Of a stretch of 64,000 nt of DNA, positions 7,821 to 13,088 are shown piece after piece. The notes below the pieces were generated by a model that did no database searches, was not told where the DNA came from, and was given only the letters and a program-made list of their open reading frames with translations. Within the stretch, counting starts at the first letter, position 1. Each line of letters starts with the position of its first letter. The translations under genes and the position numbers were made by a program. This stretch comes from Planctomycetota bacterium (GTDB lineage: Bacteria; Planctomycetota; Planctomycetia; Planctomycetales; Planctomycetaceae). The stretch is taken from NCBI GenBank assembly GCA_027618475.1, contig JAQCEJ010000012.1, positions 1 to 64,000 of the forward strand, read 5' to 3'.

Positions 7821-7990
7821 CCGTTGTTGAGTGACCCGAGAAGGGGGAGTTGGTCGCAATTTGCCCGCCAATCTGCGACAATTACTTTCTTCGCGAATGA
7901 GATTTGTATCGGACCACTTCAATATGAAAAATGCGGAGTACAGGATCTCCGCCCGATTGACAAAAAATGATTCTTCTGAAAGGAACAGAC

Positions 7991-8545
7991 ATGCAGAAAT
8001 TGTTGTCCATTGCTGCCGTAGGACTGCTGAGCCTCGCCGGTTATGCGGTCGTCGCCGGTGAAGCCGATTCGGGATTGAAGGTCGGAGATTCTCCGGCTGC
8101 GTTCAATGTCCTCGATTGCTCGGGACCGTCCGAAGGGACGAGCCTGTGCTATCGCTGCAAGTACGGCGCACGCCCGACCGTCGCCATCTTTACCCGCGAA
8201 ATCAACGACGACGTGGTCTCGCTTGTACAACAGATCGACGAACAGGTCGGCGAAAACCAGGATAAGAAATTGTCGGCTTTCGTCGTATTGTTGACCGACG
8301 ATCCCGATGCGAATCAGCCCAAATTGAAGAAACTGGCGACCGACAAGGGAATTAAGAACGTACCGCTGACCGTCTTCGACGGCGTGGCCGGTCCCCCCGA
8401 ATACAAGCTCGCTGAAGGCGCAGCCGTCACCGTGCTGATGTGGAACAAGTCGAACGTCAAAGTCAACAAAGGTTTCGAAGAAGCCAAGTTGAGCAAAGAT
8501 GATGTAACGACTGTCGCCAAAAACACGTCGAAAATCCTCAACTGA
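7991..8545 (+). CDS. Exported thioredoxin-like protein with CxxC motif
   Basis: 184-residue exported protein with a signal peptide (about 1-23). The mature part begins GLKVGDSPAAFNVLD like redoxins. Cys43, Cys53 and Cys56 form a cluster, with 53-56 reading CYRC, a CxxC pair. The position resembles a thioredoxin-fold active site, but the surrounding sequence is not that of a standard thioredoxin. The start is set by AAAGGAAC just upstream of the ATG. A 6-bp hairpin (7933-7952) lies between it and the peroxiredoxin, and a strong terminator follows, so the two genes probably end one unit. Role in redox handling is inferred. Confidence 0.7.
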   Translation: MQKLLSIAAVGLLSLAGYAVVAGEADSGLKVGDSPAAFNVLDCSGPSEGTSLCYRCKYGARPTVAIFTREINDDVVSLVQQIDEQVGENQDKKLSAFVVLLTDDPDANQPKLKKLATDKGIKNVPLTVFDGVAGPPEYKLAEGAAVTVLMWNKSNVKVNKGFEEAKLSKDDVTTVAKNTSKILN

Positions 8546-8604: not shown

Positions 8605-8918
8605 CGTTGAGGACGGGACGACTGACCGCAAAGTTGCAGCACAGGCTTTCGCTCGCAACGAAAATACTTAATCCAGCATAATGATGGCAGAATTTCTGAA
8701 CCCCGTAGGGGTGGCCGTTAATAGCCTCTCCGAGGCTGAATGCCGGGCATGAACGCAAACCGCTTTTGTCGTCCGCAAGTTATTATTCCTTTGGGAAAGG
8801 CGTGGCCAACTCCGAAGATTGAAATGCAGCGCAATTATGATCGTCGGTCATACAGAGCCAACTGGACCCTCTGCACCAGGTGCAGTATCATCGACACATC
8901 AACTAAAGGATGCTTTCG
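8605..8918. other. Intergenic region with two small hairpins, no gene seen
   Basis: No supported gene. Two adjacent hairpins lie in it: CCCC-gta-GGGG (8701-8711) and AGCCTC-tcc-GAGGCT (8723-8737), separated by GGCCGTTAAT-like sequence. The pair could be a dispersed repeat or leader structure; nothing ties it to a known RNA family. Confidence 0.4.
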
Positions 8919-10193
8919 ATGTCGATGTCCCGTAGCGAGATTCGCAAGATTCAACAGGAGAAATGGGAATTCCTGTGGAACGAAATCGGCGAGCGTAATC
9001 CCTTCTGGCGAGCACGGGCTGCGGGACAAGACCTTTCTTTCGATGCCCTGTCGCAATTTCCCTTCACGACGAAAAGCGAACTCGTCACCGATCAATTGCA
9101 ATCTCCGCTGTACGGTACCAATCTGACGTACCCGCGCACAACGTATTCGCGGCTGCATCAGACGTCGGGAACGACCGGCCAACCGATACGCTGGCTCGAT
9201 ACGCCTGAAAGCTGGAACTGGCTGATTCAATGCTGGTCGCAACTGTTTCAACTCATCAGCATCACACGGGACGATCGTTTTTGTTTTCCGTTCTCGTTCG
9301 GACCGTTTCTGGGGTTCTGGGCCGGTTTCGAAGGGGCCCTTGATCAGGGAAACTTCAGCATCGCCGCCGGAGGAATGTCCACATCCGCCCGGTTGAAACT
9401 CATCTGCGAACACGAGATCACCGTCGTGTGCTGCACGCCGACGTATGCTCTGCGCATGGCCGAAGTTGCTCGCGAGGAAGGATACGATCTGCCCGCAACG
9501 GCAGTCCGCATTCTGCTCGTCGCGGGAGAACCCGGGGGCTCGATTCCCGCAATTCGTCGGCAGATCGGAGAAGCCTGGGGAGCACGCGTCATCGATCATT
9601 GGGGGATGACGGAACTCGGTCCTATGGCGATCGAACCGGTCGACCATCCCGCGACATTAACACTTCTCGAAACCGAATGCATACCGGAGATCATTGATCC
9701 GGCGACAGGCTCGGCCGTTTCACCGGGGGAACTCGGCGAACTCGTGATGACCAATCTCGGACGCCTTGGTTCCCCTCTGATTCGATATCGCACAGGTGAT
9801 CTCGTCCGCGCTGTATCCGTGGAGGATGGATTTCTACGGCTGGAAGGAGGCATTCAGGGGCGCGTCGACGATATGATGACCATCCGTGGCAACAACGTCT
9901 TTCCTTCCGCGATCGAAGCCGTCATTCGTGAATTTGACGATGTCGCCGAGTATCGCCTGGAGTTACGGACGACACGGGCGATGAATCATTTGCACATCGA
10001 GATCGAACCGCGGGCAGAATCGGCCGATCACAGAAATTCATTGTCGACCGACGAGTTGATCGAAGCCATTCGCCAGCAACTCCGCGATCGATTTCATTTT
10101 CAGGCCGAGGTCGTTCCCGTCGCCGTTAACAGCCTCCCCCGATTCGAAATGAAAGGCCGGCGATTTGTTCGGCGCGAGGTGTCTGCGGAGTAG
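8919..10193 (+). CDS. Phenylacetate-CoA ligase-like AMP-forming acyl-CoA ligase
   Basis: Adenylate-forming enzyme that would activate a carboxylic acid to its CoA thioester, 424 residues, the usual length for PaaK-type ligases. The phosphate-binding loop reads TSGTTGQP (about 82-89). DHWGMTELGPMA is the A5 motif, YRTGD the A7 motif, and RVDDMMTIRGNNVFPSAIE the C-terminal hinge typical of PaaK. Start: AAAGGA (8905-8910) is eight bases upstream of the ATG at 8919, while the ATG at 8910 overlaps that site. No phenylacetate catabolic genes adjoin it, so the acid substrate is open. Confidence 0.85.
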   Translation: MSMSRSEIRKIQQEKWEFLWNEIGERNPFWRARAAGQDLSFDALSQFPFTTKSELVTDQLQSPLYGTNLTYPRTTYSRLHQTSGTTGQPIRWLDTPESWNWLIQCWSQLFQLISITRDDRFCFPFSFGPFLGFWAGFEGALDQGNFSIAAGGMSTSARLKLICEHEITVVCCTPTYALRMAEVAREEGYDLPATAVRILLVAGEPGGSIPAIRRQIGEAWGARVIDHWGMTELGPMAIEPVDHPATLTLLETECIPEIIDPATGSAVSPGELGELVMTNLGRLGSPLIRYRTGDLVRAVSVEDGFLRLEGGIQGRVDDMMTIRGNNVFPSAIEAVIREFDDVAEYRLELRTTRAMNHLHIEIEPRAESADHRNSLSTDELIEAIRQQLRDRFHFQAEVVPVAVNSLPRFEMKGRRFVRREVSAE

Positions 10194-10566
10194 ATGACGC
10201 TACTGTCGGCAGCCGATCACTAAACGGCGAAGATTTGCGAATTCATACTTCAACATTTCTGCGGAAAATTTTACATGTTCTGTCGCGGCACGATCGTCTC
10301 GATTCGTACGGTTTGACAAAAATGTAAAGTTCAACGTCATCGATAAAATCCCCTCTTACAACATGCTTAATCCGTCGACTCGCCCCCTTCCTTCCTGACC
10401 GGTTCAATTATCGAAATCGTTCGCTATCTGGAACTTAAACTCACTCTTGCAGGCCGCAAAGTTTTCGTGAGCGGTTCTTCCCGGACGATGTTCAAGTCCG
10501 TCATGGCAGGAGTCGATCAAGAGAAAAGATTCTGGATACTCGTGTTGCACCAGGGAGCAGGTGTGT
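10194..10566. other. Intergenic region, no gene seen
   Basis: About 370 bases. A perfect TTGACA (10313-10318) is present but no good -10 box lies 16-18 bases downstream; an AT-rich stretch with GATAAAAT follows at 10342-10349. Possible promoter region for the next two genes; not assigned. Confidence 0.35.
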
Positions 10567-11202
10567 ATGACGTCGGATACCGTTCGGGACAAGATGCGTC
10601 TCGGCTTTTTAACCACCGTACAAACGCCTGAAGGAAGTTTCGTCGGAGGGTTGCTGGTGACGAACCATATGGGGCGTCCACTGGAGTTTCAGTGCACCAC
10701 ACCCATTAAACCGAACGCGACCCAACAGATTCTGTACGGTCCAACCCTCAAGCCGTTTTTGATGGGTGAGTTGATCAGTAAGACCCTGGTCGAGAGGGTT
10801 GGCATCGCCCCTGACATTCTGTTGACCGAACAGGAAGAAGTTCTCGAACTTCGCCCGCACGTGAATGTTCCGGTGGGACTCATTTCCTTACCCGCTCGCG
10901 TAAAAAAAGCGATCGCTGACAAATCAGGTTCGATTGGGGAGAATTCCGTGACATCGGACGCGGCCGAAGCATCCAGCGAGGGCAATATTTCCTCACCGGC
11001 ACAATCGTCAGAGGGAGCCCCTTCGGAAAAGCAAGTCCGGTTGGGAAGGCAATGGCTCCGATTTCATGCGAGTCACGACGACGATCGGGTCAAAGTTTCC
11101 GAATCGTCAAAGAGCATCTCTGCCGATGCCGATTTGCTTGAGCCATTCGAACGGGTTCGCGAAGCCTTAATGGAGGCTTCGCGCAACGGAGCAGGACGTT
11201 GA
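10567..11202 (+). CDS. Conserved-looking protein of unknown function, coupled to a SNF2-type helicase
   Basis: 211 residues, not recognised. The N-terminal part (about 1-110) looks like a compact globular domain with alternating hydrophobic strands ([20 protein letters not shown] and following) and a [18 protein letters not shown] stretch. The part after about 125 is Ser/Glu-rich and probably disordered, followed by [15 protein letters not shown] and a helical end. No signal peptide or membrane helix. Start: GGGAG (10553-10557) is nine bases from the ATG. Its TGA overlaps the TTG start of the helicase gene (TTGA), so the two are probably co-translated and may act together; that is inference from position. 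Confidence 0.65.
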
Positions 11203-13088
11203 GCGAACTTCAGTCGATGATTGTCACTCCTTCACCAGAGGCCGTATCGGTACACCCGCAATCGATACCGATCGAAACATCGAGTTCTTCTTTCTCCAAC
11301 TGGGGACTCGACATACACGCCTCGGGGATAAACGGCGCTCTCAAGCGTTGGCCGAAGCTCGATTGTCAACAGCTGGCCTTGTACGACCGTTTGCCGCTCG
11401 AACCGAGCTGGAAACCTTACTGGCCCCGTCCGAAAACGTTTCGCATGACGTTTCCGGACGGACTTGAGTTTCTTCCCCCGCCGAAAGAAAAAACGTCCGA
11501 ACCCGAACAGGCCGGCGAAAAACCCGTCCCCGAAACCGGCGGCGGCGACGAAGCGGCCGATGCCGCCACTCCCCGGAAGCGAACACGGTTGAAACCTCCT
11601 TCCGATGCGCTTTCACTGGAAGACCGCTTGTTTTATCTGTTGCAACCGCCGCTCGAAACATGGCTCGCGGGACAAGAATTGATCATGCCGTTCGAGCCGT
11701 TCCCTTATCAGTACGAAGGAATTGCCTGGCTCTTCTCGCAAGGAGCGGCATTGCTCGCCGACGAAATGGGACTCGGCAAAACCATGCAGACGATCACAGC
11801 GATTCGATTACTCCTTCGCAGTGGACAGGTCCGCAAGATCTTATTGATCTGCCCGAAACCACTCATTCCGAACTGGCAACGCGAATTCAAAACATGGGCC
11901 GAGGAATTACCGGTCACACTGTTGGAAGGGGACGCCGCTCGCCGCAAAATGCTGTGGACGATGCCTGGCATACCTATCTTGCTTGCCAACTACGAACTGA
12001 TGGTCCGCGACATGGAAGCCCTCGAAGACGACGAGCGGCCCAAGTTCGATCTTGTCGTGTTGGACGAAGCCCAACGCATCAAAAATCGCAACTCGCGCAC
12101 ATCCGAAACGGCGCGGGCCATTCCCCGCAAACGAACGTGGGCTCTCACCGGCACGCCGATCGAAAACCGGCCGGAAGAATTGGCGTCGCTCTACGAATTC
12201 ATGGAAGTCATCCCGCCGCGCGGCACTCCCGACTTACGGCAACTGATGAAACTCTCGAAAGAATTTATTCTCCGCCGGACCAAAGATCTGGTGATGAAAG
12301 ACCTCCCGCCCCGTCTCGATCGCGAAGAGTATCTCGACCTCAACCCCGCACAAGAATATGCGTATCGCGTGGCCGAAAAAGAAGGGATCATTCAGCTCAA
12401 CGAACTCGGCGAATCGATCTCGGTGCAACACGTGTTCGAACTGGTGCTGCGCTTGAAGCAGATCACGAATTACGATCCGCTGACCGGCGAAAGTGCCAAA
12501 CTCGACCGTCTGATGGCAGACATGGAAGAAATTTCGGCTAGCGGCGGCAAGGCGATTCTCTTCAGCCAATGGACGAAAACAATCGACTGGATCGCCGCGA
12601 AAATGGAAGGCCGCAACTTCGGCGAGCTGATCTATCACGGCGGAGTTCCCACAAAGAAAAGGGAACCGATTCTCAAGCAATTCAAGGAAGACCCGAATTC
12701 GCATTTGTTGCTGATGAGTTACGGCACCGGCGCCGTGGGACTTAATCTACAATTCGCTGGTTACGTATTTTTGTTCGACCGCTGGTGGAACCCCGCCGTC
12801 GAAGACCAGGCAATCAACCGCGCGCATCGCATCGGCCAGAAGACGAAGGTCATCGTGACGAAGTTCATCTCGAAGAACACGATCGAAGAACGCATCGACC
12901 TCGTCTTACAGCAAAAACGCGAACTCTTCGCCGCGGTGTTGGGCGACGGAGATAACACGAACGTTTCGCTCAGTTTGAACGCCTCAGAAATTTTCGGCTT
13001 ATTTGATCTCAAGGCGCGTCACGGGAAAGGGACGAGAAAAATCGCCCCGCCGACGGTCAATTCGGATGCAGCCGATACAGCGGCGTGA
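11199..13088 (+). CDS. SNF2-family DEAD/DEAH-box ATPase (helicase-like)
   Basis: 629-residue Swi2/Snf2-type DNA translocase ATPase. After an unusual N-terminal 165 residues, the ATPase core shows Walker A DEMGLGKT (G193-K194-T195), Walker B LDEAQ (289-292), [11 protein letters not shown], and the C-terminal lobe with [17 protein letters not shown] and [20 protein letters not shown]. This is the ordinary RapA/HepA/Snf2 layout. The TTG start at 11199 has GGAG (11188-11191) seven bases upstream and overlaps the previous stop codon; an ATG at 11217 is the alternative. Likely acts on nucleoprotein complexes; a specific role such as RNA polymerase recycling or defence cannot be told. Confidence 0.88.

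Follow-up and report, generated by a model that had tools for sequence, protein, structure and literature searches.

What does a protein of no known family do beside a SNF2-family ATPase? The question is raised by two overlapping genes on the forward strand of a 64,000-nucleotide stretch of a planctomycete contig (the window, hereafter meaning this whole stretch). The upstream gene, which we call q (10567–11202), encodes a 211-amino-acid protein from an ATG at 10567 to a TGA at 11200–11202, with an alternative GTG start at 10561 that would lengthen the product by two residues. The downstream gene, h (11199–13088), lies in a different frame and encodes a 629-amino-acid protein from a TTG at 11199 to a stop codon ending at 13088, with GGAGCAGGA directly 5' of the TTG. 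The stop of q and the start of h share the four bases TTGA (11199–11202), which confirms what the first-pass annotation had described, namely a 211-residue product whose stop codon forms part of the TTG start of the helicase. This gene anatomy is well supported by the open reading frames; as the N-terminus of h is unconserved, translation may instead begin at the ATG of its codon 7 (11217). Coupling through TTGA is not, as might be assumed from the window, a conserved feature: in a non-random sample of 64 distinct adjacent q–h pairs, a 4-base start/stop overlap is possible in just 14, the others having gaps or different overlaps. Long frames of 818–865 amino acids running over q in three genomes of one genus (G055, G128 and G138) were considered as natural q–h fusions, and rejected on finding that a stop separates the genes at all three loci. 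A promoter and terminator scan was uninformative.

Assignment of h to the SNF2 family is well supported. Both Pfam domains are matched (SNF2-rel_dom, E 2.9e-48; Helicase_C, E 9.7e-18) and the motor motifs are intact, with DEMGLGKT, Asp289 and Glu290, and the segment Asn540 to Arg544 invariant in an alignment of 36 sequences. The ATPase core, delimited by Pfam, the alignment and a PDB match, covers residues 168–593 (11700–12977) and includes RAHRIGQ. Among proteins of solved structure, the nearest relative by sequence is the snf2/rad54-family helicase 1z63 (E 3.9e-60), which we take to be archaeal and which has the same motor. Compared with 1z63, h has the additional partner q and conserved flanks of its own. 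One is a segment preceding the ATPase (residues 142–152; 11622–11654), in which Arg143, Leu144, Leu148, Gln149 and Pro150 are invariant in the 36 sequences; the other is a C-terminal tail (residues 590–604; 12966–13010) that contains EIFGLFDL and in which Leu601 and Phe602 are likewise invariant. We infer that residues 142–152 and the EIFGLFDL tail are candidate contact sites. In some h proteins (L038, L039 and L109) roughly 30 extra residues are inserted immediately ahead of the DEAQ motif. Within the host genome the SNF2 domain model matches one gene besides h, a 1144-codon open frame on another contig (C94). No plasmid record covers 80% of h, the best 30 of 907 plasmid matches being 33–36% identical.

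The first-pass annotation took stable pairs of this sort to suggest a complex acting on nucleoprotein, and a survey of relatives upholds the stable unit: a SNF2 ATPase and a protein of predicted RNase H-like fold (see below), both resembling nucleic-acid proteins, are retained together, and their co-occurrence is well supported. With the window genome counted, 142 of the 150 family genomes have a q match and 140 an h match (E up to 1e-100). Both genes are present in 138, q only in four (G016, G062, G068 and G100), h only in two (G114 and G122) and neither in six, one of which (G143) holds a short h piece below the limit. Adjacency was typed for 139 q rows and 139 h rows, the window genome excluded, and in 127 of the 135 typed genomes with both genes h lies downstream of q, on the same strand and within 3 kb. 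Two further genomes (G019 and G133) were left out of the q typing with q pieces cut at contig ends, and in each the piece adjoins h. The genes are non-adjacent in the remaining eight pairs: they lie about 219 kb apart on the single contig of G069, on two contigs in its congener G028, and on different contigs in six others, where assembly breaks are possible. The sequence distances of the two genes are correlated (r 0.87 for 36 pairs; 0.75 for the 17 family pairs). Such a correlation is what joint vertical descent would produce, and it shows common inheritance, not contact.

The same picture extends to the class, presumably Planctomycetia. Of its 198 genomes, 150 contain a q match and 145 an h match with E up to 1e-90; 144 genomes have both and 47 neither, presence agreeing in 191, while six have q only (G100, G589, G619, G631, G643 and G647) and one h only (G546). 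Outside the family, where 99 q rows and 96 h rows were typed and G647, with a weak q, is not among the places listed, the genes are adjacent in 78 of the 95 genomes with both and non-adjacent in 17; on the single contig of G515 they are 5 Mb apart. Common separation in relatives would have argued against a unit; separation is seen, but in a minority only (8 of 135 family pairs and 17 of the 95 pairs elsewhere in the class), many of the cases being drafts with the genes on different contigs. When all candidates of the six q-only genomes were scored in a second search for h, five yielded only more distant SNF2 proteins and G619 gave no SNF2 match at E up to 1e-30. Five q-only genomes lie outside the family, in genera g337, g339 and g347, and other members of these genera (G557, G560, G577, G604 and G634) have q and h on different contigs. 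After such a separation h may become dispensable and be lost, or it may be missing from the drafts; q-only genomes in genera with parted genes are the main fact against a strict q–h unit. Since the genomes share descent, the counts represent few independent presence or absence events: the f5 family accounts for 17 of the 20 q-negative genomes listed by name, with no positive row, and there are 28 further negatives. Absences are also bounded by the number of candidates scored per genome, at most six for h and 17 for q within the class, and eight in the phylum searches.

Across the phylum, q was detected in 40 of 392 genomes with a first profile and in 41 with a wider one (E up to 0.01), and two of these matches fall outside the class, G219 and G513 (E 0.007). 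The match in G219 (C229, 4096–4434; L107) is the sole strong one beyond the class and occupies one end of a contig of 4464 bases, next to a SecA-like open reading frame; h was not found in this incomplete genome, and transfer, old presence and contamination are candidate explanations for its q. A scan of genome contigs for exact short peptides returned two planctomycete loci only, which is no proof of absence elsewhere.

Genes around the pair vary between loci and give no functional clue, and the seven other nearby window genes scanned belong to other Pfam families or to none. An AMP-binding ligase gene upstream of q in the window (8910–10193) has a relative near q in six of 23 family loci, the window included; it is in the opposite orientation in five of the six and is Pfam-named in the window only. 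A nitrite/sulphite reductase gene stands divergently beside q at eight of 33 class loci (L118, L122, L124 and L128–L132), is Pfam-named at two of the eight, and stays with q in three genomes that have h on another contig. The window also holds, at 7967–8545, a 192-amino-acid open reading frame that adjoins an AhpC/TSA-type gene and has no significant Pfam match (best E 0.17).

Sequence searches assigned q to no family. Pfam, NCBIfam and PADLOC gave it no match at E up to 1, no PDB sequence matched its profile at E up to 10, and the window q matched no Pfam family at E up to 10, including PF04493, PF08459 and PF01949; over 15 q members Pfam returned just four other families, one member each. 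We therefore describe its fold from prediction. An AlphaFold2 model of the window q, built on a 15-sequence alignment (pLDDT 83.1, pTM 0.77), has the order βββ-α-β-α-β-α, a low-confidence stretch, and then ββ-α-α. Residues 11–119 (10597–10923) make up the first part, with strands at 12–19, 25–32, 38–43, 84–87 and 103–106 and helices at 51–77, 90–98 and 110–119. Residues 120–155 (10924–11031) form a length-variable linker of low confidence (pLDDT block means of 46–51 over residues 121–150), followed by a C-terminal part (residues 156–209; 11032–11193) that is again ordered (block means of 78–96 over residues 151–210). The reading of q as a compact N-terminal domain with a disordered linker holds as to the linker, but this is an insertion within the fold: an ordered part follows it, and structural matches span residues 5–211. 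As a replicate we modelled L133, a distant homologue that shares 33% identity with the window q, from 58 sequences (pLDDT 87.7, pTM 0.80), and obtained the same βββ-α-β-α-β core and C-terminal helices, the late hairpin being absent.

Foldseek searches were led by UvrC and EndoV for the window q (E 2.2e-4 and 2.5e-4) and by EndoV for the L133 model (E 2.6e-4), with TM-scores of about 0.3–0.4 for the top matches of both models. Realignment (VIA), in which a Z of 7 to 8 is the typical best value for models without a clear match, gave for the window q EndoV 3ga2 (Z 11.2, rmsd 4.3, 163 aligned), DUF99 2qh9 (Z 10.7, rmsd 5.6, 153 aligned), UvrC 8b0q (Z 9.7, rmsd 3.7, 134 aligned) and RNase HII (Z 8.7, rmsd 2.7, 114 aligned). 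The L133 model likewise gave EndoV 4nsp at the head (Z 11.0, rmsd 4.5, 158 aligned), followed by DUF99 (10.3), Argonaute and UvrC (both 8.5), and RNase HII and a PRP8 domain (both 7.8). A viral structure library contained no match to q with E up to 0.001. The core of the RNase H-like superfamily (βββ-α-β-α-β and a C-terminal helix) is present in the two predicted models, each with Z above 10 to EndoV, and prediction thus supports an RNase H-like fold for q, closest to Endonuclease V, DUF99/Endo_dU and UvrC. We claim the fold and not family membership because the TM-scores lie at about 0.3–0.4 and the profile alignments are non-significant, hhalign giving a probability of 8.6% against EndoV (30 sequences) and 0.6% against UvrC (30 sequences), compared with 60% for an EndoV–UvrC control. 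By sequence, q belongs to none of Endonuclease V (PF04493), the UvrC nuclease domain (PF08459) and DUF99/Endo_dU (PF01949).

We then placed the catalytic positions of this fold on q. The structural alignments start by pairing residue 7 of Tk-RNase HII and residue 43 of Tm EndoV, both of which we take to be the catalytic aspartate, with residue 16 of the window q; in the second model, residue 7 of RNase HII, residue 43 of EndoV and residue 1781 of PRP8 fall on its residue 17, the equivalent position, and both readings suppose that strand 1 is gapless. Asp1781, Asp110 and Glu89 are named in the PDB titles. The catalytic aspartate of UvrC, presumably residue 367, aligns one residue later than q residue 16. 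In the window q, then, the predicted equivalent of the β1 aspartate is Thr16 (10612–10614), as read from alignment ranges and not from coordinates. Among 59 q sequences (less than 80% identical, window q included) this position is T in 40, S in six, A in five, R in four, W in two, and G and C in one each, and acidic in none; position 17 holds A, V, T or I, and positions 12 to 17 contain no acid in any of the 59. Loss of the strand-1 catalytic aspartate of the superfamily is, like the fold, supported by prediction. Other acids persist: Glu68 (10768–10770), in the long helix, is acidic in 59 of 59 sequences, as are Asp189 and Glu192 in the C-terminal part, and Glu88 (10828–10830), at the end of strand 4, is acidic in 48 of 59. 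The hhalign alignments with EndoV and UvrC, themselves weak and non-significant, both put Glu88 on the β4 aspartate. An extra glutamate in helix 1 is found in RNase H1 and EndoV, according to the available excerpt of Majorek and colleagues (PMC3985635).

On this modelled active site, we consider q probably, not certainly, a pseudo-nuclease. In the excerpted survey of Majorek and colleagues (PMC3985635) the strand-1 aspartate is conserved in all superfamily enzymes, and it is absent from all 59 q sequences; the host genome, moreover, already carries separate genes for EndoV (G000:C190) and UvrC (G000:C140). These points weigh against a translocase–nuclease repair unit in which q would be an active nuclease with a rearranged active site, and h would deliver it to lesions or clear proteins for it. 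The retained acids speak for such a unit, and the loss of one aspartate is no proof of inactivity, because Endo_dU, whose structure 2qh9 is among the best matches to q, cuts deoxyuridine DNA despite an incomplete DEDD set, with the first aspartate present in just half of the Endo_dU proteins analysed (PMC11585767, available text); overall we judge an active nuclease unlikely. A role in transcription draws on other matches. In this reading h would remove or recycle RNA polymerase much as RapA, an established bacterial SNF2 motor of that type, does, and q would serve as adaptor to polymerase, RNA or R-loops. The second q model resembles chain M of polymerase II elongation complexes (E 1e-3 to 1e-2), which to judge from the titles would be SPT6, as well as chain C of the E. 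coli transcription-coupled ribonucleotide repair complex 7uwh (E 1.6e-2). Planctomycete proteomics has detected SNF2 proteins labelled RapA, the available text reporting five such genes, all with SNF2_N and Helicase_C, of which two are expressed (PMC8567305). RapA identity of h itself is ruled out by a family score of 60 bits against a cut-off of 576, by the lack of any RapA family among its Pfam hits, and by BLASTP, whose alignments with E. coli RapA cover 76 and 178 residues and lie inside the motor. Nor is there a transcription gene among the seven other nearby genes scanned. A role in transcription, including the recycling that the first-pass annotation had held possible, is in our estimation conceivable but rather improbable.

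An anti-phage role, also entertained in that annotation, found still less to sustain it. PADLOC, run on q and h only, has models of DISARM, Zorya and Dpd that match h, and SNF2 helicases are parts of those systems. The best stretches of these matches, however, fall in the motor region, h misses the NCBIfam cut-offs by far (DrmD 104 against 950, ZorD 139 against 1500, DpdE 64 against 500), and q has no PADLOC match. We disfavour defence, and think it very improbable, because the pair is near-universal in the family, its neighbours vary and q is absent from the mobile-element collections searched: neither the 72,556 plasmid records nor the 50,697 phage records gave a tblastn match to q (E up to 0.01), and of seven stretches in viral contigs that fit a q peptide pattern none was confirmed. 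That q and h are merely co-transcribed neighbours with separate housekeeping roles also seems rather improbable to us. It would accommodate the 25 non-adjacent cases among 230 typed pairs, such as those on the single contigs of G069 and G515, and the six class genomes with q and no detected h, five of which belong to genera whose other members carry q and h on separate contigs. The agreement in presence across the class tells against it, but through shared descent this comprises few independent events, f5 making up most of the listed negatives.

We favour, at a probability of roughly 40%, the view that the genes form a housekeeping unit, passed on vertically within one planctomycete class and made up of a SNF2 translocase and a pseudo-nuclease-like partner with an RNase H-like fold. 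Comparison with known systems shows what would set it apart. Endonuclease V, the best structural match to both q models, has the same core order of strands and helices; q differs in its Thr in place of the β1 aspartate and in having no significant sequence or Pfam match to EndoV. DUF99/Endo_dU is a tied match and has an acidic set that is also incomplete, but q lacks its Pfam signature and the available part of PMC11585767 does not mention SNF2. The C-terminal nuclease domain of UvrC resembles q in fold and, in the weak profile alignment, in the place of Glu88, and differs in that q is stand-alone and has lost the β1 aspartate. A parallel in layout may be Prp8 with Brr2, in which an RNase H-fold domain with an incomplete active site works in one machine with an SF2 motor (PMC3985635, excerpt). 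This is a works-like analogy only: Brr2 belongs to another helicase family and, as far as the excerpt of PMC3677097 goes, is bound and stimulated by a different Prp8 domain, Jab1/MPN, while the Prp8 match of the second q model (Z 7.8) taken alone perhaps reflects just a common arrangement. Another helicase–partner unit occurs on a Halococcus plasmid (L164), where a SNF2-type DEAD/DEAH helicase gene and a partner gene share a 4-base overlap, as in q–h; there the partner is annotated as a SWIM zinc-finger protein and the gene order is reversed.

We postulate that h acts as an ATP-driven DNA translocase, as its SNF2 family would imply, and that q assists it as an accessory subunit whose RNase H-like fold resembles those of EndoV, UvrC and DUF99 but no longer carries the canonical β1 catalytic aspartate. 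The nucleic-acid face of this fold would bind and recognise the substrate, which could be damaged or branched DNA, an RNA–DNA hybrid or a stalled complex; through direct contact q would recruit or gate the motor, and h would move along DNA and displace bound proteins. A bolder and more doubtful version, which we offer tentatively, is a two-subunit bacterial SNF2 machine that belongs to the core of one planctomycete class and whose motor has an RNase H-fold pseudo-nuclease as its substrate reader, a layout that would recall Brr2 with Prp8 or polymerase with Spt6; it could be a nucleoprotein remodeller or a new transcription-linked route of DNA repair.

Bacteria have many SNF2 proteins, but apart from RapA and the defence systems we are aware of few whose partners have been identified. 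In the open-licence literature we found no report of the q–h pair among titles and the beginnings of abstracts, and no description of the RNase H-fold family of q; the available part of a paper on PVC signature proteins (PMC3444138) makes no mention of SNF2. The pair joins a broadly retained motor to a dedicated partner whose fold is predicted, and, if the proposed reading is true, partner-controlled SNF2 action in bacteria would become testable with two small genes.
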